Shown in pieces: positions 136 through 21,706 of a stretch of DNA of 24,724 nt. The notes beneath the pieces were generated by a model. That model saw only the letters and a list, made by a program, of their open reading frames with translations. It searched no databases and was not told the origin of the DNA. Each line of letters begins with the position of its first letter. Within the stretch, counting starts at the first letter, position 1. Source of the stretch: a virus; IMG/VR virus record IMGVR_UViG_3300034009_000006, positions 1 to 24,724 of that record; one strand, 5' to 3'. Position numbers and translations under genes: made by a program.

Positions 136-226
136 GGAGCGGTGGCCGAGTGGTCGAAGGCGCTCGCCTGGAAAGTGAGTATACGCCAAAAGCGTATCGA
201 GGGTTCGAATCCCTCCCGCTCCGCCA
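136..226 (+). tRNA. tRNA-Ser (anticodon GGA)
   Basis: A complete class II tRNA can be folded by eye. The acceptor stem is GGAGCGG with CCGCTCC, followed by G and an encoded CCA. The D arm is GCC..GGC. The anticodon stem is CTCGC/GTGAG around the loop CTGGAAA (anticodon GGA, reading UCC and UCU). There is a long variable arm (TACGC..GCGTA) and a T arm GAGGG-TTCGAAT-CCCTC. The integrase gene follows 158 bp downstream, so this tRNA is the likely integration target; the element keeps the 3' end of the gene intact. Confidence 0.97.
199..226 (+). other. probable attachment-site core (att) in the tRNA-Ser 3' end
   Basis: Tyrosine integrases of this type usually recombine in the T-arm/acceptor part of a tRNA gene and restore its 3' end. 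The integrase begins just downstream, which marks the T arm to CCA end as the probable crossover region. The second copy needed to prove this would lie at the far end of the element, outside the window, so the exact core is inferred. Confidence 0.45.
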
Positions 227-383: not shown

Positions 384-1694
384 ATGCTGACGGACACTCA
401 AGCCAGAAAAGCCGCTCCGCAGGAGCGGGACTATAAGCTCTCCGACTCAGGCGGGCTCTTCCTCCTGGTCACCAAGGGCGGAGCGAAAAGCTGGCGCCTG
501 AAGTACCGCTACGGCGGCAAGGAGAAGCTGCTCACCTTCGGGCTCTACCCGGACGTGGGTCTAGCGGAGGCGCGGAAGCGCCGCGACGAGGCGCGGCGCC
601 AGCTGCGGGAGAACGTCGATCCGGCGGTCGAGAAGCAGAAGGCTCGGCTGGACGCGGCGGCTGCGGCGAGCCAGACCTTCGAGAAGCTGGCCCGGAAGTG
701 GCACGCCAACGAAGAGGGCCGCTGGGGCGAGGTTCACGCTGCCGACGTGCTGCGCAGCCTTGAGCGGGACGTCTTCCCCGCGATCGGCCGGTTGCCGATT
801 AGCCAGATCGACACCCCCTTGATCCTCTCCGCCCTCCGCAAGGTCGAGGCCCGCGGATCGATTGAAACTGCCCGGCGCTGCCGGCAGCGGATATCGGCCG
901 TCTTCGTCTACGCCATCTCGGAGGGCCATGCCCGGGAGGACCCGGCCGCCGTGGTCGCCAAGGCGCTCAAGCCTCTTCCGAAGAAGGGCCGCCAGCCGTC
1001 AATCGTCGACGGGATCGATGACCTTGAGGAGATGGTGCGGGCCGCACAGAACCTGCTCATCGCCGCCGAGGACGCGGGAGCTTCCCCGGTGACCAAGCTG
1101 GCCTCGCGCCTGCTAGCGCTCACCGGCGTCCGCCCCGGAGTCGTGCTGGGCACGACTTGGGCCGAGTTCGAGGATCTGGACGGCGACGCGCCGCTCTGGC
1201 GGATCCCCGCACGCCGCATGAAGCTGAGCAGGGATCGCAAGGACGAGGAGCAGTTCGACCACCTTGTTCCCCTGTCCCGGCAGGCCGTCGAGGTCGTGGA
1301 GGCGGTTCGCCGCCTCACCGGGCGGGCCGCCTACGTCTTCCCGAATCAGCGCCACAGCTACCGGCCGATGAGCGAGAACGCGATCGGCTACCTTTACAAC
1401 CGCGTCGGCTACCATGGGCGGCACGTCCCCCACGGCTGGCGCGCGGCCTTCTCCACCATCATGAACGAGAAGGCGGAGCGCGACGCGCGCGAGACCGAGC
1501 GGCCAGCTCTGGCGGAGCTGGATCGCAAGGTCATCGACCTGATGCTCGCGCACGTTCCTGAGAATAAGGTGGAGGGCGCTTACAACCGGGCCTCGCACAT
1601 GGGCAGGCGCCGGGAGATCGCGCAGGAGTGGGCGGACATGATCTGCGAGACGCTGAACCGCCCCGCCCAGCTGCTAGAGATGCCGCGGCGCTGA
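384..1694 (+). CDS. int: tyrosine-type site-specific integrase (tRNA-targeting, DUF4102/P4 type)
   Basis: 436 aa, a normal length for the P4/CP4-57-like integrase family. It catalyses integration and excision of the element at the neighbouring tRNA-Ser gene. The N-terminal ~90 residues carry the arm-binding DUF4102-like domain (DSGGLFLLVTKGGAKSW, with TFGLYPDVGLAEAR following). A SAM-like core-binding domain spans roughly 95-200 and the catalytic domain roughly 215-430. The catalytic set is visible: R250 in TGVRPG, H350 and R353 in HGWR, H390 in LAHV, and Y400 in AYNRA. The enzyme therefore looks intact. The gene reads away from the tRNA into the element and its stop codon overlaps the Shine-Dalgarno sequence of the next gene, so int is the first gene of a short rightward operon. 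Confidence 0.96.
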   Translation: MLTDTQARKAAPQERDYKLSDSGGLFLLVTKGGAKSWRLKYRYGGKEKLLTFGLYPDVGLAEARKRRDEARRQLRENVDPAVEKQKARLDAAAAASQTFEKLARKWHANEEGRWGEVHAADVLRSLERDVFPAIGRLPISQIDTPLILSALRKVEARGSIETARRCRQRISAVFVYAISEGHAREDPAAVVAKALKPLPKKGRQPSIVDGIDDLEEMVRAAQNLLIAAEDAGASPVTKLASRLLALTGVRPGVVLGTTWAEFEDLDGDAPLWRIPARRMKLSRDRKDEEQFDHLVPLSRQAVEVVEAVRRLTGRAAYVFPNQRHSYRPMSENAIGYLYNRVGYHGRHVPHGWRAAFSTIMNEKAERDARETERPALAELDRKVIDLMLAHVPENKVEGAYNRASHMGRRREIAQEWADMICETLNRPAQLLEMPRR

Positions 1695-3796: not shown

Positions 3797-3991
3797 ATGA
3801 TCAGCAGCCGGGAAGCCCTGAAAATCCTCAAAGCCGATGGCTGGTACGAGGTCCGGACGCGCGGCGACCACATCCAGATGCGGCATCCGACGAAGCCGGG
3901 CCTCGTGACGGTCCAGCATCCGGTGAAGGACCTTTCCCTCCGCAACATCATCAGCATCGAGAAGCAGAGCGGGGTAAGGCTCCGGCCCTGA
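3797..3991 (+). CDS. hicA: HicA-family mRNA interferase toxin
   Basis: 64 aa, the normal HicA length. HicA toxins are dsRBD-like ribonucleases that cut mRNA until HicB blocks them. The family pattern is complete: N-terminal helix SREALKILKADGWYEVR, catalytic loop RGDHIQMRHP with H25, strand GLVTVQHP, and a C-terminal SLRNIISIEKQSGV helix. The start ATG follows AAGGAACGAC. The gene begins 22 bp after the third operator palindrome. Its antitoxin normally overlaps or directly follows; here a 47-codon ORF is inserted before the hicB-like gene. Confidence 0.93.
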   Translation: MISSREALKILKADGWYEVRTRGDHIQMRHPTKPGLVTVQHPVKDLSLRNIISIEKQSGVRLRP

Positions 3992-4172: not shown

Positions 4173-4192
4173 CCCTGAGCAGGAGACTGACA

Positions 4193-4843
4193 ATGCCCCC
4201 GATCTACTACCCCGCCGTCATCGACCGCAGCGCCAGCGGATACGGCGTCAGCTTCCCCGACTTCCCGGGCTGCGTCGCGGCCGGTGCCACCGTCCAGGAA
4301 GCGGCGGTGAACGCCGAGGCGGCCTTGGCCTTGCACCTCGATGGCATGCGCGCCGATAAGGAGAAGGTCCCCCAGCCGTCCTCCCTCGACGACATCGAGC
4401 CGGTGGAAGGCGCGGACGACGTCGCGCGCGTCCTCGTCAGGGTTGAGGTGCCCGCGGGCTTCACCCGCATTCAGGTGACCATCGAGGACGGCGTCCTCGC
4501 GGCGATCGACGCGGTCAGCAGCAATCGGTCCGGCTTCCTCGTCGATGCCGCGCGGGTCGCGCTGCAAGAGCGTGCGGGCTTGGCCAAGCACTTGCTGCTC
4601 GTGGCTTGGCAGAAGAAGAACGGCTGGCTCTTCCGCGAGAAGGCGCCGGAAGCGATCTTCGCTCACCGATCGGTCTATGGTATCCGCGCCATGCCGGGCG
4701 ACTTTGCCATCGTCAGCATGAAAGACCCGGTGACCCCCGCGATGATGGCGGACATGGAGGCCCATCTGCGCGGACGCGAGTTTCAGGCCTCAGTGGGTCC
4801 TTTGCGGCCGGACGATTATCACTGGGTGCAGCAGGGACGATAG
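4193..4843 (+). CDS. hicB: HicB-like antitoxin with ribbon-helix-helix segment and extra C-terminal domain
   Basis: 216 aa from the ATG at 4193, which has AGGAG upstream. Residues 1-65 are a standard HicB partial RNase H-like fold (YYPAVIDRSASGYGVSFPDF, PGCVAAG, then a helix to LHLDGMRADKEKVPQPS). Residues 78-127 look like a ribbon-helix-helix operator-binding segment (VPAGFTRIQVTIEDGVLAAI, then RSGFLVDAARVAL). Most HicB proteins end here. This one continues for ~89 residues (LLLVAWQKKNGWLFREK, GIRAMPGDFAIVSMKDP, HWVQQGR) with normal GC3 and no family I recognise. It should neutralise HicA and bind the palindromes upstream; the extension's job is unknown. Confidence 0.85.
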   Translation: MPPIYYPAVIDRSASGYGVSFPDFPGCVAAGATVQEAAVNAEAALALHLDGMRADKEKVPQPSSLDDIEPVEGADDVARVLVRVEVPAGFTRIQVTIEDGVLAAIDAVSSNRSGFLVDAARVALQERAGLAKHLLLVAWQKKNGWLFREKAPEAIFAHRSVYGIRAMPGDFAIVSMKDPVTPAMMADMEAHLRGREFQASVGPLRPDDYHWVQQGR

Positions 4844-4856
4844 ACGCTGCCGCGCC

Positions 4857-5411
4857 TTACCCCTCACCCGCTTCGCTCCCGTGTTCATCCGCCACCGGCT
4901 GGAACTCCAGCGGGAACTGCGCCTGCTGCGGCGGCAGGTCCAAGTCGGCTATCCCCCGGACGTCCATTGTCGCTCCGCTGAGCTTTCTGATGTCTTCGTC
5001 ATCGGAGTAGAGGACGTCTGCGCCTTCGACCCTTGCGATCGAGACGATTTGTTCGTCGAACTTCACCTTCCGGCGCGGGGCCGACGAGCGCCGGCCGGAG
5101 GTGAGGCGCTCTTGCTCCAGGGCCGCAAACTCTACCGCCGCGAGTTCATCGAAGGGCGCTACGCGCACGTGCTTCGTTGTGCTCAGGATCCTCAGCCACT
5201 CGGGCGCCGCCGGCCCTGCATAGACAAGGACCTCCGCGAGGGCGGGCGCGGGAACGATGATCTTGGCCTTGGACCTCTGAAGCTCGGCTATGAGGTACGC
5301 GATACGGTCGCCGCAACGCGTCACGGGCTGCGAAGTCGCTGGATCGACGGGTGCTCCGACCTCGGCGTCGAAGAGGTAGACGAGCACGCTCGCGTCGAAA
5401 GCCACTATCAA
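4857..5411 (-). CDS. PIN-domain protein (putative ribonuclease)
   Basis: 184 aa. It begins at a TTG that overlaps the upstream stop as TTGA; a GTG two codons later is the alternative start. PIN domains are metal-dependent RNases, often VapC-type toxins. The acidic residues line up: D6 in AFDASVLVYLFD, E60 in APALAEVL, D119 in KFDEQIVSIA and D137/D138 in LYSDDEDI. The length is greater than a typical VapC (~130 aa) because of an insert at residues 16-35 and a C-terminal tail rich in P, Q and E. It is translationally coupled to the unknown gene upstream, so the pair probably acts together. It converges on hicB with a 13-bp gap. Confidence 0.88.
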   Translation of the reverse strand: MIVAFDASVLVYLFDAEVGAPVDPATSQPVTRCGDRIAYLIAELQRSKAKIIVPAPALAEVLVYAGPAAPEWLRILSTTKHVRVAPFDELAAVEFAALEQERLTSGRRSSAPRRKVKFDEQIVSIARVEGADVLYSDDEDIRKLSGATMDVRGIADLDLPPQQAQFPLEFQPVADEHGSEAGEG

Positions 5412-6300: not shown

Positions 6301-7134
6301 TTACCGCGCCTCGCCGATGAGCGGCAGGGGCCGGTTCGAGACAATCAGCTCGCCCACGCGCTTCCCTCCGGACGTCTTCGTTGCGATCGTATAGGTGGTC
6401 GCCACCTCCTCGGTGTAGAACTCGCCGAACGCCTTTCGCGCCGGCAGCTCGTCGTTGATCGAGAGGATGAACTGCCCTGAGATGCGGGCCAGCTGATCCG
6501 CCAGCCGTCCGAAGTCCTCGGGATCAAAGACGCCCGATCCGTAGTCGTCCTCGCAGCCACAATAAGGCGGGTCGAGATAGAACAGGGCGCCCGGGTGGTC
6601 GTAGCGGCTCAGGAACGTCGAATATTCCAGCCGCTCAATCGTCACCGCAGCAAGCCGATCATGCGCATCCTCGAGCAACGGGACCAGCTTGAGCAGGTCG
6701 AATCGGGCAGGCTTCCGTGCGTCCACGCCGAAATTCCGGCCAGCGACCTTGCCCCCGAACGCCGAGCGCTGGAGATAGAGGAACCGCGCCGCCCGCTCCA
6801 GATCGGTAAGCGTGGAGGGGTCGACCTGCATCAGCCGATCAAACTCGGCCCGGCTTGAGAGCTGCCACTTCAGCGTGTCGAGAAACGCCTGATAGTGGCG
6901 CTGGAGGATTCTGAACAGCGTGACGACGTCGCCGCTGATATCGTTGATCGCTTCAGCCCGTGGTCGGCGGCGGCGGCGGAAGAAGATGCCGCCCATTCCG
7001 ACGAACGGCTCCGCGTAGGTCTCGCAGGAAATCATGTCGATAATTGCGGTGAGGCGGCGGGCGAGATTGCGCTTGCCGCCGATGTAGGGCGCGACCGGAG
7101 ATACCGGCCGCACATGCTCCAATGTGGACTCCAT
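6301..7134 (-). CDS. D12-class DNA adenine N6-methyltransferase
   Basis: 277 aa, the normal size for a Dam/D12-class enzyme that methylates adenine N6 with S-adenosylmethionine. Motifs are in order: PYIGGKRNLA (16-25), the SAM-binding EPFVGMGGIFF (42-52), NDISGDVVTLFRIL (64-77), and the catalytic DPPY at 188-191 followed by CGCEDDYG. There is no restriction endonuclease gene nearby, so this is probably an orphan phage methylase for protection or regulation. The target site cannot be read from the sequence. The ATG at 7134 has only a weak ribosome-binding site. A U-poor hairpin lies just upstream and an intrinsic terminator downstream, so it may be transcribed separately or at the tail of the late operon. 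Confidence 0.93.
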   Translation of the reverse strand: MESTLEHVRPVSPVAPYIGGKRNLARRLTAIIDMISCETYAEPFVGMGGIFFRRRRRPRAEAINDISGDVVTLFRILQRHYQAFLDTLKWQLSSRAEFDRLMQVDPSTLTDLERAARFLYLQRSAFGGKVAGRNFGVDARKPARFDLLKLVPLLEDAHDRLAAVTIERLEYSTFLSRYDHPGALFYLDPPYCGCEDDYGSGVFDPEDFGRLADQLARISGQFILSINDELPARKAFGEFYTEEVATTYTIATKTSGGKRVGELIVSNRPLPLIGEAR

Positions 7135-14473: not shown

Positions 14474-17400
14474 TCAGCCCGCCGCCTGCCGCCCAGCGAA
14501 GGCCCGAATAGAGCCTCCGATGAACCCGTTCGCGCCGCTGCCGCCCATCCGCTCGAGGAGGTCCTGAATGCCCCCGAGGCGGCCGTGGATGCGGTCGAGG
14601 AGGTCGTTTGCGGTGCCGGTATTGTTCGCCGTTCGCTCGGCGAAGGGGTCCGCCGCGGTGCGAATCGGCGTCGCGTTGTCGATGTTGCTGATCGCCCGGT
14701 TCGTATAATCCTGAATCTTCGCCATCTCGGAGAAGAAGGACCCCGTGGAGCCGCCGAGCTGCCGCTCGATGTCGAGATAGGCTTGGGCCGCCTGCAGGTA
14801 CTGCCCCTGATCTATGGTCTCTTTCGCGTCGATCTTTGCGAGGAACGGCTGCAGCGCCGCCTTCGCCGCCGCCTCCTGGTCGCGCAGCGAGAGTGGCGAC
14901 GCGGAGCCGAAGTTGAGATCCTTCAGGAAGTCCTTGAGGTCGGCCGAAGCTTCCCGCGTCCGCTCCTTCACCTCCTCAAGCTCGATCTTGTAGAGCTTCT
15001 GGGCATCGGCCCACTGCTGCTGCGTCGCGCCGCCCTCCTTCAGGGCCGCGACCGTCTTCTCCCAGCGCTCGTTCAGCTCGTCGAGTGCGGCACCGACCGG
15101 GTCCAGGCGAGCCGCCAGCTTCTTCGGAATTTCCTCGATCATCGCGGCCTTCTCGATCGCCCGCTCCAGATCCTGCCCGGAGGCGAGAATCTTCTTCGAG
15201 GCGGCCGAAATGCCGCTGATCACACCGTCCTGCAGCGCATCCTGAATGGCGTAGCGGATGGCGGCCTCTTGGTCCTTGCCGAAGTCGATCGCGCCCTTGC
15301 TCGTCTTGGTGCGCCCCTGCCCCGTAGGGTCGACCCGCCAATTGTCCTTCCGCAGCCCGATGGACACGGAAGGGGTGCCGGTCAGCTCACCGCCGAGCGC
15401 ATCCGCTATGCGCTTCAGCGCGTCGGCGACGGAACCGATCGCTCCGCTCGCGGCCTCTTCGCGCTTGCCGCTGTTGCCTCGGGTCGAGGTGACTCCGAGC
15501 GACCCCCACTGGTCGAAGCCGAGCGTGGCAGAGCCGCGCTTCGTCCCTTTGATAGCGTTCACCGCCAGCGCACCGAGCGGGCCGAGCAATCCCCCGGTTG
15601 GGTCGTCGATCCCGAAAATCTTATTGAGAAGCGAGCCCGCCGCCATGGCCATGCCGACATAGGGCATCGCCTGCCCGAGGCTTCCAGCGATGCCTCCCAA
15701 CCCGCCGGCCATCGAGCCGAGGCCATTGGCACCGTCGCCTGCGGCGATGCCGAGCGCGGGGCCAAAGATCGACTCGTTCGCGGGATTGTTCACCATGCCG
15801 GTGATGTCGCCATAACCGGCGTTGCCGGGGGTGCCCCACATGCCGCCGCCGAACAGACCGCTCAGGAAGCCGAGCGGGCCGCCTCCAGCCGTCGCCCCCA
15901 TCTGCTGGAGGATGTTGGTCGGCATGGTGAGCTTCTGGCCGGAGAGCAGCTGCATGGTCCACTGCGCCGCCAGCTGGCCGAGCACGCGGAAACCCATGTC
16001 TTCGAAGTCTTCCCAGATGCTCTTGCCCCCGGAGCGAAAGGCGTCCTCCCAGAACCCGGCGAGGCTCTCGAACTCCTCCCGCGCGCGGTCCCCCTGCCAC
16101 CGCAGGTACTCGTTCCACGCATCCTCCTGCTGCTCCATGAATCGGGCAGCGTCTGCGCGCTCTTTGTTCGCCTTCCGCTCAGCCTCGGCTCCGTCTTCCT
16201 GAGCATTGCGGATGCCGATGGTCGCTCGGAGAATGGCCTCAATGAGCTGCAGCCGATCTGCGTCGGTCTTGACCATGTCCTGCGCGCTGTCGACGGTCGC
16301 AAGCAGCTGGTTCAGCGCCTCGGCGCGAGCGGCCTTCTCCTGGTCAGTCAGGGTGGTCGTGTCACCCTGCGCAATGATCAGCTGGTCGAGGGCGCGGGAC
16401 TGCCCCTCAAGCGTGGAGAGCTGCGCCTGAAGCTCGGCCGAGACCACCCGCTGCTCATCGGGCAGCTTGGCGATCTGATCCGCATGCTGCTTCCGGAGGG
16501 CTGCAATCGCGGCCTCCGAGTCTGCCTCGCGCTCCAGTCCCTGCGCGCGCATCGCGGCGGACTTGAGCCCCGCCTCCTGGACGTCGAGGTTCTCCACCAG
16601 CGCATGATGGATGCGCTCGATCAGCTCGGCCTGCTGCTCAAGCTCCCGGTTCTGCTGGGTGGCCTCCTGCGCCGCGGTGGGGGCGCGCCGGAAGCCGAGA
16701 ACGTCGCGCGCCGGGAATGTGGCCGTATCCACCTTGTCGCTGGTATTGCCGCCCAGCACCCGGACATTGCCCTTGCGGTCGAATCCCTCAAAGAAGCCGA
16801 CATGCCCCTCGTCCGGGTTCTTGCCCCGCCTCAGCACCACAATATCGCCGCGGGTCGGGCTATCCGTATTCTCGCCGTAGGAGAGGAACGAGCGGGCATT
16901 CAGCGCGCCCGTCCCCTTCAGGCCCTGCGTCGCGAGCACGGCGTTGACGAAGGCCGCGCACCACTTGACGATTTCCGGGTCGATATTGAGGTTCGCCTCG
17001 CGGAACAGCGCCTGCAGGGTGCCCTTGTCCCCATGTTCACTCAGGCCCCGGTATTTCGCCGCCTCTTCGCTCAACCGCTCCCGGTTTTGCTCGGCAATAT
17101 CCCGCCCATAGTGCGGCTTCTGCCGCGACTTGCGTTCGGCCTCGTTGGCGGCGTCGACGGCCTTCTTGTGGTCGGCCTCTGCGCGCGTCAGCGCCTGCGT
17201 CATCGCGAGCTTGTCGGCGTCGGTCTTCTTGCTGTTCCGGTATGCCTGCTGGATGCGCTCAATGGAGTCGAGATAGTCTTCGTTCGCCCTTCGGGCCGCG
17301 TCCGTTGACGCAGCGGCGTCCCGACGTGCCTTTCCGATCTCCAGCTCGGCTATGGAGGCAACGTCTTTGTCGATAGCCTCGTCCAGCTGCCTCAGTCGTT

Positions 17401-18532
17401 CCTCGGCCTCCCGAACCGCGGCATCGGCGACCAAGACTCGACCGCCTGCGCCGTAGTAGGAAGGCTGCCCCTGCCCTACCTGAGCCATCGCGGCCTTCAT
17501 CCGTTCGATGCGGTTCTCGATCAAGGCCTTCGTATTTTCGCGGGTTATCTTGGTCTGCTCAAGGGTAGCCTTGGCATCGTCAATCGCTCTCTGCGTCGCC
17601 TCGCGAGACGTTTCGTTCATGTGTTTGGTCTGATCTTCGAGCTCACGGCTCGCCTCGATCAAACCCTCAGTCGTGATCTTGAACCTCTCCTGCGCCTCCC
17701 GAGTGATTTCCGTCTGGCGCGAGTTTTTCTCAAGCTCCGCCGTGGCTGCTTCGAGCGCGTCACCGGCACCAAAAAGCTTATCGCCGAAGAGCCCGACGAG
17801 GGTGAGGCCGCCGAGGATCGCGGTCCCCCAGCCGCCCGACAGGTAAGTCGCGAACTTGCCAGCCTGTCCGCCGACGTTCTGCAGAACGAAGGCCATCTGC
17901 GACGCCTGCATGGCGAAGGCGGCCATGACGCGCTGACCGCCGCCGACCTGAATGAAGAAGTCCTGCACCTGCTGCGATGCCTGGGTCATTGCCATCGCGT
18001 GGCCACGCGAAGACGTGACGCCTCGGTCCATTGACTGGTTCAGGAGCCGGTTTCCCTGAACGACGACGTCCGTCGAGGCGCGCGTCTGGTTCAGCTCCTG
18101 CTGCAGCAAGTCGAGCGCGTTGGCCTGCTGATGCAGGCCCCGCGCATTGTTCTCGGACTCTATGGCGGCGGCCCTCGCCGCCTGCAGGTAGACCCGCGTG
18201 CTCTCCGAAATGTCGCCTGTCTTGATCGCGAGCGCTTCAGCCGCGCTGGCGACTTGTCGGAGGGCCGCGGCCTCGGCATCGGCAGCAGCGGCAGCCTCCC
18301 GCGCTCCCTTGACGTTAAGGTCGAAATTTCCTCCGGCCGTCCGCGGCGTAGCCAGCGCGCGCTGCGCAATCTGCTGGATCTCGTTATAGCTCGTCTCGAA
18401 GGCGGATTTAGTGCGAGCGGCCGTGTCGCGGGCCGACGCTTCCATCTGCGAAAAGATGCGAGCGTTCTCCGACGAGAAAGCCGTGCCGTTCAGGGTGAGC
18501 CGGGCGACGATCTCGGCGGTCGAAGAAGCCAT
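14474..18532 (-). CDS. tape measure protein with embedded peptidoglycan hydrolase
   Basis: 1352 aa, start ATG 18532 with GGAGG 6 bp upstream. The protein sets tail length and is ejected with the DNA. The N-terminal region is long, charged and coiled-coil-like, with hydrophobic segments near residues 230-250 (GTAILGGLTLVGLFG) and a Gly/Ala-rich membrane-active stretch at about 880-980. Residues ~497-622 are an inserted NlpC/P60- or CHAP-like domain (TIGR02594 type): C525 in KWCAAFVNAVLATQGLKGTG, then GDIVVLRRG, H577 in GHVGFF, and VRVLGGNTSDKV. This domain probably cuts cell wall during DNA entry. The gene follows the chaperone/lipoprotein cluster, as expected for a siphovirus tail module. Confidence 0.93.
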   Translation of the reverse strand: MASSTAEIVARLTLNGTAFSSENARIFSQMEASARDTAARTKSAFETSYNEIQQIAQRALATPRTAGGNFDLNVKGAREAAAAADAEAAALRQVASAAEALAIKTGDISESTRVYLQAARAAAIESENNARGLHQQANALDLLQQELNQTRASTDVVVQGNRLLNQSMDRGVTSSRGHAMAMTQASQQVQDFFIQVGGGQRVMAAFAMQASQMAFVLQNVGGQAGKFATYLSGGWGTAILGGLTLVGLFGDKLFGAGDALEAATAELEKNSRQTEITREAQERFKITTEGLIEASRELEDQTKHMNETSREATQRAIDDAKATLEQTKITRENTKALIENRIERMKAAMAQVGQGQPSYYGAGGRVLVADAAVREAEERLRQLDEAIDKDVASIAELEIGKARRDAAASTDAARRANEDYLDSIERIQQAYRNSKKTDADKLAMTQALTRAEADHKKAVDAANEAERKSRQKPHYGRDIAEQNRERLSEEAAKYRGLSEHGDKGTLQALFREANLNIDPEIVKWCAAFVNAVLATQGLKGTGALNARSFLSYGENTDSPTRGDIVVLRRGKNPDEGHVGFFEGFDRKGNVRVLGGNTSDKVDTATFPARDVLGFRRAPTAAQEATQQNRELEQQAELIERIHHALVENLDVQEAGLKSAAMRAQGLEREADSEAAIAALRKQHADQIAKLPDEQRVVSAELQAQLSTLEGQSRALDQLIIAQGDTTTLTDQEKAARAEALNQLLATVDSAQDMVKTDADRLQLIEAILRATIGIRNAQEDGAEAERKANKERADAARFMEQQEDAWNEYLRWQGDRAREEFESLAGFWEDAFRSGGKSIWEDFEDMGFRVLGQLAAQWTMQLLSGQKLTMPTNILQQMGATAGGGPLGFLSGLFGGGMWGTPGNAGYGDITGMVNNPANESIFGPALGIAAGDGANGLGSMAGGLGGIAGSLGQAMPYVGMAMAAGSLLNKIFGIDDPTGGLLGPLGALAVNAIKGTKRGSATLGFDQWGSLGVTSTRGNSGKREEAASGAIGSVADALKRIADALGGELTGTPSVSIGLRKDNWRVDPTGQGRTKTSKGAIDFGKDQEAAIRYAIQDALQDGVISGISAASKKILASGQDLERAIEKAAMIEEIPKKLAARLDPVGAALDELNERWEKTVAALKEGGATQQQWADAQKLYKIELEEVKERTREASADLKDFLKDLNFGSASPLSLRDQEAAAKAALQPFLAKIDAKETIDQGQYLQAAQAYLDIERQLGGSTGSFFSEMAKIQDYTNRAISNIDNATPIRTAADPFAERTANNTGTANDLLDRIHGRLGGIQDLLERMGGSGANGFIGGSIRAFAGRQAAG

Positions 18533-18647: not shown

Positions 18648-18896
18648 CTAGCTGCCGCGCACCCTCGCCAATAGACAACTGCTGTCGGCAGTGATCTTCG
18701 AAAGCTTATGCTTCTCGGCGTTTTCGGCTTTCAACCAGGCCTGCTCGACCTTCCTCGCGGCCTCGCACAGCTCGGCTTCTGACCCGCCGTTCTTCTGAAG
18801 CATTGCATACTGCCGCTCCGCCGCCTCGGCTTCGCCCGAGGCGGTATTGCATCCGCCGATCGCCAGCGTCGCCAAGCTCAGGATCAGTATGCGCAT
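18648..18896 (-). CDS. small lipoprotein
   Basis: 82 aa from the ATG at 18896; an upstream in-frame ATG would place 12 extra residues before the signal. Residues 1-16 (MRILILSLATLAIGGC) are a type II signal peptide ending in a lipobox with C16. The mature part is helical (AAERQYAMLQKNGGSEAELC, EAARKVEQAWLKAENAEKHK) with two further cysteines. The pattern is recalled from sphingomonad genomes. It lies between the DUF6441-like gene and the tape measure. As an expressed prophage gene it could alter the host envelope, for example by superinfection exclusion, but that is speculation. Confidence 0.75.
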   Translation of the reverse strand: MRILILSLATLAIGGCNTASGEAEAAERQYAMLQKNGGSEAELCEAARKVEQAWLKAENAEKHKLSKITADSSCLLARVRGS

Positions 18897-18937
18897 CGCA
18901 CCTATATCGCTCAATCCCACTAGGGTGCGCAACCGCC

Positions 18938-19606
18938 TTACGCACCCCCTCGCGCACGCTGGGAATATGCCCGCTCCAAGCGAGGCATCGCGCGTCGGAC
19001 GACTGGGGCCACGGCGAAGCGAGCGTGGAAGGCGGCGCCGTAGGGAAGGACGACGAAAACAGGCACGGTGGCGCCCCTGCCTGGTCCGGTGGCTCGGCCC
19101 AGCCGGCGCCCGGCTCGCCCTGCTGGTGTCAGCCGCGCGTCGTCCATCACGAGCACGATGGTGCCGTTCGGCTTGGGCACGGGGCGAAGCTTGACGCCCT
19201 TCCTCCGCTCGAACTCCTCGGGGGTGAGATTGTTGAGCCTGCCTCGCGGCCCGGCTGCCGGAAGGGGGATAGCGATACCGCCGCCGTCTCGGCCGCGGAT
19301 GCGACCGCTGCTGATCAATGCCTGCCCTGCACCGCGAGACCGGCTCCCCGGCCGGCCCTTGATGTACACAGAGCCCGAAGGGTCGCGTGCGATCTTACCG
19401 CCAGCCGGGAAAGCCCGGCTCCCCCACACTTTCGCCAGATTGCCGGCGCCGGCGTCGCGTGACAGATCCTCCAGCGCCCGTCGCAGCCAGTCGGTGGTCT
19501 CGGCGACCGCCTCCTTGCTATAGCGGAGGTGCTCCCGCGTGATCCCATCCGCGACGCGAGCGAGCTGCGCGGGATCGATCTCGAAGTCTGGGATCGGTGC
19601 AGCCAT
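18938..19606 (-). CDS. DUF6441-like phage tail-module protein
   Basis: 222 aa. Its ATG shares one base with the stop of the frameshifted chaperone ORF (TGATG). The sequence has a helical N-terminus (TREHLRYSKEAVAETTDWLR, RALEDLSRDA), a basic Gly-rich centre (AKVWGSRAFPAGGK, IRGRDGGGIAIPLPAAG) and FERRKGVKLRPV, followed by strands (TIVLVMDD, VPVFVVLPYG). This order resembles the uncharacterised DUF6441 family found in phage tail clusters; the family name is given from memory. Position between chaperone and tape measure fits a tail assembly or completion protein. Confidence 0.7.
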   Translation of the reverse strand: MAAPIPDFEIDPAQLARVADGITREHLRYSKEAVAETTDWLRRALEDLSRDAGAGNLAKVWGSRAFPAGGKIARDPSGSVYIKGRPGSRSRGAGQALISSGRIRGRDGGGIAIPLPAAGPRGRLNNLTPEEFERRKGVKLRPVPKPNGTIVLVMDDARLTPAGRAGRRLGRATGPGRGATVPVFVVLPYGAAFHARFAVAPVVRRAMPRLERAYSQRARGGA

Positions 19607-20471
19607 CAGGAAGGCTCCTGACGCATCCAGCTATCGAGCAGCTTGAACGCGTCCCAAAGGGCTGCTGGCTGCTCCCCCAGCGAGCCGGCGCAGGGCAGGG
19701 GCGGCGCGCCTCTTCCGAAGACGCTCTCAGCGGAAAGCGCCCTGCACTCGAAGTAGAGGTCTACGACGTTGAACGCCCACCGCGGGACCGAGATGAGCGG
19801 GTTTTCCTCCCAGATCTCGCCGCCGATGTCCCACCCTCGCGGGGCGCGTCCGATGTCGAAGGCCGCAGGCTCTTGTCGGACGGCAAGGGCGGCGCGGAGT
19901 TTTTTTCGAAGCCCGTGGCGTACTGCATCTGATACGCCTGCATGCCTGCGACCCGGAGGGTGAGGGCCGGGATCTTCGACAAGGCGGCGATGGTGACGCG
20001 CCCGTCGATCCCCTTCTTGAACTCAGGCAGGTCCTTGCCGCTCCATCCGGTGCAGAACCACTGGAAGGCGAGCGTCGGCAGCAGCTCGTTGCGCCGCGCC
20101 ATTCGTCCAACGAGCGTCGAGTAGGGCGGCCAATGCTCAAGGACAGCAGCGCGGCTCTGCTCGAGCAGGGCGCGGTCCTCTGCGGCAAGCTGCGGCTTGT
20201 TACCGGGGCCAGCCGCTTCAGCGGCCTCCTTTTCCGCCGCCAGCGCCTGCTCGATGCGCTCTACGCCCTCCGGGTCATCCGCGAGCAAGGTCCTGACCCC
20301 GTCGAGGAAGGCCTCTTCCGTCTGGAAGTCGAAGACGCGGCCTGCGCGCATCTCCGCGACCGCCGCCTCGAACTCGCCGCGCTCGACCACGTCGCCCGCC
20401 CGCAGCATGAACTGCGTGTCCGGGTCCCACGAAGGGGACCAGGCCACGGGCTCCTTTGATGCTCGTATCAT
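19606..20471 (-). CDS. tail assembly chaperone with probable -1 programmed frameshift (G/GT type)
   Basis: The 0 frame starts at ATG 20471 (GGAGAG upstream) and runs 191 codons to the heptamer A AAA AAC (19905-19899). A -1 shift there continues for 97 codons (LRAALAVRQEPAAFDIGRAP, EIWEENPLISVPRWAFNVVD, ALWDAFKLLDSWMRQEPS) to the TGA at 19606, giving a 288-aa product. Without a shift the frame gives 236 aa, ending at 19761 in low-complexity R/S/G sequence. The -1 segment has no ATG, GTG or TTG until its last seven codons, so it needs a shift to be translated. The position between tail tube and tape measure matches lambda G/GT chaperones. A homopolymer sequencing error in the 7-A run is the main alternative. 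Confidence 0.8.
19899..19905 (-). promoter_or_regulatory. slippery heptamer A AAA AAC
   Basis: On the minus strand the codons GAA AAA AAC contain the X XXY YYZ heptamer A AAA AAC in the correct phase for a -1 shift. It lies within a run of seven A residues in an otherwise GC-rich gene. No clear downstream pseudoknot is visible; a weak CTTG/CAAG stem follows within 30 nt. Confidence 0.75.
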
Positions 20472-20482
20472 CGGCTCTCCGA

Positions 20483-21706
20483 TCAGTAGAAGGTGAGGAA
20501 GCGGTCACCGTCGCGGCTCGTCGGACCACGGCCCGGATTGAGTGCCTGGAAGGCGAGATCATCCGACCGCAGCCGGCCCCGCATGCCCGACGCAGCCCGG
20601 ATCGGCTGCGCGACCGGGAGGACCAGTGCCCACCGGTTGCCGAGCGTGTTGCCGCACCGGAGGACGCCGGGGTAGTTCAAGGCTGCCTGCATCTCCGCGA
20701 TGGCATCGCGCGTGCCGACCAGTGCGCGGAGGGGATCGCACTCGAAGACGGGGCGCCGCATTGCGATCTGGCCCGGCCCGAAGCCATAGGTCGTGTTCGG
20801 GTCTTCGACGCTTTCCAGCGCACCGCCGTTGCGGAGCGCCCAGGTCCTGATCGGCAGCTCCCGGCGATTCATCAGGAAGGCCGCCGAAACCGCAGTCCCC
20901 TTGGCCAGCAGGGGCGCCGAATGCGTCGCGATGACGGCGTTCGTGGGCATCGTCACCGTTGAGGAGCCGATATAGGTCCCGCTCATGCTGAAGGCGCCGA
21001 AACCGGGCCGCGCCGTCGTGCCCTCCAAGTCGAGGACCCCGCGCACGTCCTGCCACTGGTAGAGGTTGCCATCTTCGTAATAGCCGACCGTGTGGGGCGG
21101 GTGGTCCGTCAGGCGGCTCGCGGCATCGGTAGGGCTGGTCCCGGCATAGGTCCAGTTCGCCAGGAGTAGGAAGTTCGTGCTCGCCGCCAGTGGCGGAGAG
21201 AAGAGGTCCGTCAGCGTTGCCACGCGGCCGGAGGTGTAATCGGTGACGAACGTGATTGCGCCGCTGGCCGCAATCTGAAGCGGCTGCCCGCGATAGGTCT
21301 GCGCCACGTTCGAGTAGCTGACCGGCAGGGTGAGCGAGGTAGCGTCGCCGCCAGTGCTGTTGGCCCCACCGATGCCGGCGGTGAACTGGCCGCGCCAGCC
21401 ACACGCCTGGAAAGCCGTGTGCAGCGGCGGCTTCACCGAGTTCGTGTAGGCGGTTCCCGGCCCGGCACCCTTGATGCGGCTGCGGAAGCTGAGCGGAACC
21501 TCCTGCCCAATGATCAGCGGCGCGGAAGCGACATAGCTGCCGTTGGTCTCGTTGGTCTCCTCGCTGCCAAACGGCTCTCCATACGTGAAGCTGCCGGCCT
21601 CGATCGGCACCGCGTGAAGCGTCGGATCGAGCGTGGCGGCTACGCCCTCTGCCGACTGCGGCGCGATCAGCAGGAGCGAATTGTCCGGGCGAATGACTGG
21701 ATCCAT
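20483..21706 (-). CDS. major tail tube protein
   Basis: 407 aa, ATG with GGAGG 8 bp upstream. The N-terminus (IRPDNSLLLIAPQSAEGVAA, then DPTLHAVPIEAGSFTYGEPF) and the beta-rich middle (VPLSFRSRIKGAG, PVSYSNVAQTYRGQPLQIAA, GAFSMSGTYIGSSTVTMPTN) fit a siphovirus tail tube subunit. At ~400 residues it is longer than lambda gpV. The position after the tail terminator-like gene and just before the frameshifted chaperone is the strongest evidence. It polymerises as rings around the tape measure to form the tail tube. Confidence 0.82.
   Translation of the reverse strand: MDPVIRPDNSLLLIAPQSAEGVAATLDPTLHAVPIEAGSFTYGEPFGSEETNETNGSYVASAPLIIGQEVPLSFRSRIKGAGPGTAYTNSVKPPLHTAFQACGWRGQFTAGIGGANSTGGDATSLTLPVSYSNVAQTYRGQPLQIAASGAITFVTDYTSGRVATLTDLFSPPLAASTNFLLLANWTYAGTSPTDAASRLTDHPPHTVGYYEDGNLYQWQDVRGVLDLEGTTARPGFGAFSMSGTYIGSSTVTMPTNAVIATHSAPLLAKGTAVSAAFLMNRRELPIRTWALRNGGALESVEDPNTTYGFGPGQIAMRRPVFECDPLRALVGTRDAIAEMQAALNYPGVLRCGNTLGNRWALVLPVAQPIRAASGMRGRLRSDDLAFQALNPGRGPTSRDGDRFLTFY

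Follow-up and report, generated by a model that had tools for sequence, protein, structure and literature searches.

A two-frame gene with a conserved -1 slip heptamer downstream of the tail tube gene in sphingomonad-type phages, a predicted tail assembly chaperone

The window analysed here, a 24,724-base virus record from IMG/VR, carries on its minus strand a gene that is, very probably, decoded in two ways. In this explanation, the best for the sequences compared, most ribosomes would remain in the 0 frame and produce a short G-like chaperone of 236 aa, and a minority would slip by -1 on the heptamer A_AAA_AAC, with tRNA-Lys and tRNA-Asn re-pairing on AAA AAA, to produce a GT-like fusion of 288 aa. 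By analogy with lambda, the G part would coat the tape measure protein, the T-like part would recruit tail tube subunits, the short form would be in excess and both forms would be absent from the mature virion. Comparison of related sequences showed that two domains are encoded in this arrangement, that a slip heptamer marks the junction between them and that the -1 domain is under selection; that the gene works like lambda G/GT is a prediction by analogy. We accept the two-frame arrangement noted at this site as real on the basis of its conservation in relatives, which settles the question.

The gene and its neighbours in the window

The chaperone-like gene starts at the ATG at 20471 and its 0 frame ends at the stop codon 19763-19761 (minus strand; the strand had not been given in the first-pass annotation), the product of 236 aa (19761..20471) comprising 191 aa up to the slip site and a tail of 45 codons beyond it. 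A GGAGAG at 20475..20480 (minus strand), upstream of this ATG, may act as a Shine-Dalgarno-like element. A run of seven A residues (19906..19900), followed by C at 19899, is read as GAA AAA AAC and places A_AAA_AAC in frame over Lys and Asn codons at 19905..19899; AAAAAAC occurs only once in the whole window, both strands counted. The -1 frame then offers 97 open codons (19899..19609), a T-like domain spanning 19606..19899 with its TGA (19608-19606), which overlaps the ATG of the next gene (19606), and the fusion encoded by 19606..20471 would reach 288 aa. The A run with its codons, the open -1 frame with its overlapping stop and the product sizes of 288 and 236 aa with a 45-codon tail had all been noted in the first-pass annotation and were borne out. 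So was its remark that the -1 frame lacks a usable start until its end, as the earliest start codon is codon 91 of 97, and no start codon lies between the -1 domain and the upstream stop in that frame, 41 codons away. The 97 open codons are by themselves weak evidence, because 32% of the 97-codon stretches on the minus strand of this GC-rich DNA are free of stops.

The order of genes, all on the minus strand, is tail tube, chaperone-like gene, DUF6441 gene, small lipoprotein-like ORF and tape measure. The gene immediately upstream (20483..21706) encodes a 407-aa protein that has homologues in 27 loci and weakly matches, in tblastn (E 2e-3), Rhodobacter phage proteins annotated as tail tube. 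Downstream, the DUF6441 gene (18938..19606; Pfam PF20039, E 9.8e-11; phrog_6367) has a start that overlaps the -1 stop by one base, and an ORF with a lipobox (18648..18932) lies between it and the 1352-aa tape measure protein (14474..18532), which was assigned from a phrog_1538 match (E 0.0037), length and position. The tape measure protein contains a CHAP domain (PF05257) at residues 522-596. In six relatives (L002, L006, L007, L012, L022 and L027) the slot of the lipoprotein-like ORF was occupied by differing membrane, secreted or lipoproteins, or by none. This slot before the tape measure presumably resembles the position of HK97 gp15, so its proteins are candidate exclusion proteins. HK97 gp15 is a superinfection exclusion protein (PMC10883804).

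Elsewhere in the window, a tRNA-Ser (GGA) gene at 136-226 (plus strand) is followed by a tyrosine integrase identified by Pfam (384-1694, plus strand), and together they probably mark the attachment site of a temperate phage. We also observed a HicA toxin and HicB-like antitoxin pair (3797-3991 and 4190-4843, plus strand), a protein whose PIN-domain match narrowly missed the Pfam cut-off (4857-5411, minus strand) and a D12-class adenine DNA methyltransferase (6301-7134, minus strand).

Relatives, protein domains and known frameshift chaperones

When the N-domain and the fusion were used as direct queries, no relatives were found in viral_contigs, genome_contigs or phages, and the DUF6441 neighbour as a query also found none. 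The upstream tail tube protein identified 27 loci, 19 of them viral and 8 in genome assemblies of bacteria titled Sphingomonas, Sphingobium, Sphingorhabdus and Sphingomonadales. Alignment of the fusion across the junction, as the first-pass annotation had proposed, revealed the same two-frame design in the gene that follows the tail tube in all 25 loci long enough to test. The -1 domain alone as a query identified 42 viral loci, partly on contigs already found, and in 42/42 the N-domain HMM match lay one frame off the -1 domain, with a same-frame fusion in 0/42. Resequencing that gives a single intact frame, or homologues lacking both the heptamer and the -1 domain, had been named as results that would speak against the frameshift, and at the level of the family the observed offset disposes of this objection. 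Merging both searches, removing duplicates and including the window gave a set of 47 distinct loci.

Mean column identity was 44% in the alignment of the N-domain (A1) and 47% in that of the -1 domain (A2), and AlphaFold2 produced confident models of both, with pLDDT 94.1 and pTM 0.84 for the N-domain and pLDDT 88.3 and pTM 0.80 for the -1 domain. Across the nine pairs tested, NG86 dN/dS never reached 1 in either domain, a result that is only qualitative because dS approached saturation for the more divergent pairs and the initial stretch of the -1 domain also codes in the 0 frame. At the level of sequence comparison, the -1 domain is thus under purifying selection.

Searches of Pfam and PHROGs returned no confident family for either domain, and NCBIfam, searched with the -1 domain only, returned none. 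One N-domain member matched a PHROG chaperone weakly (E 0.019). Foldseek structure searches gave no significant match, and hhalign detected no homology to lambda G or T. The protein family is therefore new in the sense of being absent from the libraries searched, whereas the frameshift mechanism is known and ordinary. Since this mechanism has already been described in lambda and Caulobacter phages, the novelty lies in the family and in the set of sites.

The lack of a sequence match or a significant structural match to known chaperones, together with the two genes that separate the chaperone-like gene from the tape measure, could mean that the frameshifting is real but that the protein has some role other than tail assembly chaperone. 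We consider this improbable, given that the gene sits downstream of the tail tube gene and ahead of the tape measure gene, its two-product frameshift design and the presence of named tail assembly chaperones at ranks 8, 9, 11, 20 and 27 (E 0.34 to 1.2) of the non-significant viral Foldseek matches. Among the features tested for a G/GT gene, we found a slip site late in the first frame, an open -1 frame, and a second domain that is reachable only by frameshift and is under selection.

A chaperone assignment is also consistent with the comparison with lambda gpG/gpGT. Both genes lie between tail tube and tape measure, as the first-pass annotation had said, and in both a long -1 domain (144 codons in lambda, 97 in the window) is entered by a -1 shift at an X_XXY_YYZ site close to where the first domain ends. 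The gene order is not identical to that of lambda, however, because the DUF6441 gene and the lipoprotein-like ORF intervene before the tape measure. The two also differ in their slip codons, GGA AAG in lambda and AAA AAC in the window, in their 0-frame tails, of 5 and 45 codons, respectively, and in sequence, as the hhalign result indicates. The lambda frameshift design is widely conserved despite low sequence similarity (PMC5009743), so homology to lambda G or T is not a required G/GT feature. A parallel in slip sites is offered by the alphaproteobacterial Caulobacter phages phiCbK and Colossus, for which AAAAAAC and GGGAAAC, the same two sites as in our loci, have been reported for the same gene (PMC3556154). 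In the phiCbK record, gp93/gp94 are annotated as a programmed frameshift, and we confirmed the layout; the likeness is one of layout and slip sites. Unlike the window, phiCbK has a 0-frame stop directly after the slip site (a tail of 0), a -1 frame of 156 codons and a tape measure gene that follows directly. The HK97-type tail assembly chaperone cluster, which is likened here by mechanism alone, also uses a -1 frameshift, with a reported efficiency of 6-7% in reporter tests (PMC3711429).

The slip heptamer and the site of the shift

The first-pass annotation had suggested that conservation of the slip site be checked, and a heptamer was found at the junction in the 47 distinct loci, the window included. 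It was A_AAA_AAC in 31 and G_GGA_AAC in 13, the remaining three having one each of AAAAAAA, AAATTTT and CCCTTTG, whereas in-frame XXXYYYZ heptamers (Y = A/T) occurred at only 2/7520 background codons of the family's N-domains. The slip site was altered in single lineages, to A_AAT_TTT in L067 (2492-2498) and C_CCT_TTG in L080 (2495-2501), and L072, a further sequence beyond the 47, which is identical to L074 at the junction, had no X_XXY_YYZ heptamer and only T_TTT (2495-2498).

The position of the shift is bracketed by stop codons. In six relatives the -1 domain is preceded at a distance of 3-4 codons by a stop in its own frame, and in four others the 0 frame terminates at the very next codon after the heptamer; across the family the shift is therefore confined to the heptamer or a few adjacent codons. 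Conservation of the -1 domain starts at the first codon after the heptamer, with L1 invariant and R2 conserved to at least 90%. Programmed -1 frameshifting at the heptamer is thus strongly supported by the compared sequences.

Seven A residues are near the length at which RNA polymerase slippage can occur, and the second product might accordingly arise in transcription and not on the ribosome. We regard this as very unlikely, since 13/47 loci carry G_GGA_AAC, with runs of only three, and one carries A_AAT_TTT, and the X_XXY_YYZ phase, as predicted by tandem tRNA slippage, is maintained at the sites; the G_GGA_AAC sites, which lack a long homopolymer, disfavour transcriptional slippage as the common mechanism. 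Expression of the -1 frame as a separate gene, with its own start or by reinitiation, is more doubtful still and hardly to be expected: in many relatives the -1 frame ahead of the domain does stay open over tens of codons, but in 28/47 loci no start codon occurs between the upstream stop and codon +30, which disfavours independent initiation, the sole start in the window comes near the end of the frame, and conservation begins directly after the heptamer. Errors of sequencing or assembly, or else a mutation, in the seven-A homopolymer could conceivably have split a single-frame gene in a single virus record, but this reading is practically negligible, being refuted for the family by the same frame offset in 42/42 loci, its presence in assemblies of named bacterial species and the 13 relatives in which GGGAAAC replaces the long homopolymer.

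We also examined RNA structure near this frameshift site. With windows of 54 bases, the mean folding z over 22 loci reached its minimum at the slip site, where windows beginning at -4 and +8 relative to the end of the site gave -1.06 and -1.04, compared with roughly -0.7 to +0.6 elsewhere. The window's own folding z was about -0.3, with no strong 3' stem, and good stems were present in individual relatives, e.g. L004, L018 and L022. A possible weak stem 3' of the slip site, pairing GTCCGA with TCGGAC (19848..19881, minus strand), is at most a candidate stimulator, suggested by the family mean folding z (about -1.05 at the slip site). RNAalifold returned no consensus structure. Two hand-named helices were paired more often than slid versions of themselves, but compared with shuffles their covariation was weak and about a third of cells were unpaired, and for these reasons we do not claim a conserved stimulator. 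The two-frame coding of the slip region may itself cause part of the folding signal.

The 0-frame tail, host tRNAs and significance

The first-pass annotation had described the 0-frame tail after the slip site as longer than expected. Its length of 45 codons stands, but the need for a special explanation does not, as tails in relatives range from 0 to 62 codons and are less conserved than the -1 frame. Their composition is rich in Ser, Gly, Ala, Pro and Lys. A functional 0-frame tail is disfavoured because the tail is absent in four relatives and its similarity was below that of the -1 frame in 184/190 pairs (37% versus 54%). The long tail is probably a by-product, the simplest reading being chance second-frame coding of constrained GC-rich sequence until a stop is reached. 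We also considered whether a TGA within the -1 sequence CTG A.. of the conserved ENPxLT region sets the common tail length of 36 codons, and rejected this, as it applied to only 14/24 loci with tails of 31-38 codons.

In Escherichia coli, which has one tRNA-Lys, A_AAA_AAC has been reported to be much less shift-prone than A_AAA_AAG (PMC5009743). Using ARAGORN, a tRNA-Lys(CTT) gene was confirmed in 4/4 searched genomes carrying relatives, and tRNA-Lys(TTT) was confirmed in one of the four, with a pattern match in the other three. We hypothesize that, where tRNA-Lys(CUU) is present beside tRNA-Lys(UUU), AAG would be read by its own tRNA and would slip poorly, pushing the sites towards A_AAA_AAC or G_GGA_AAC. 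It is possible, though on balance doubtful, that the host tRNA set explains AAC over AAG as the second slip codon and, as a separate matter, that the Ser/Lys-rich tail is functional where kept.

Taken together, these results add a chaperone family that has no confident counterpart in Pfam, in PHROGs or, as regards the -1 domain, in NCBIfam, and they provide 47 distinct natural slip-site loci from sphingomonad-type phages and prophages. With its bracketing stops and changed heptamers, this set can serve to test the influence of host tRNAs on the choice of slip site. The finding also aids the correct annotation of sphingomonad-type prophages, in which the -1 domain would escape automatic gene callers.
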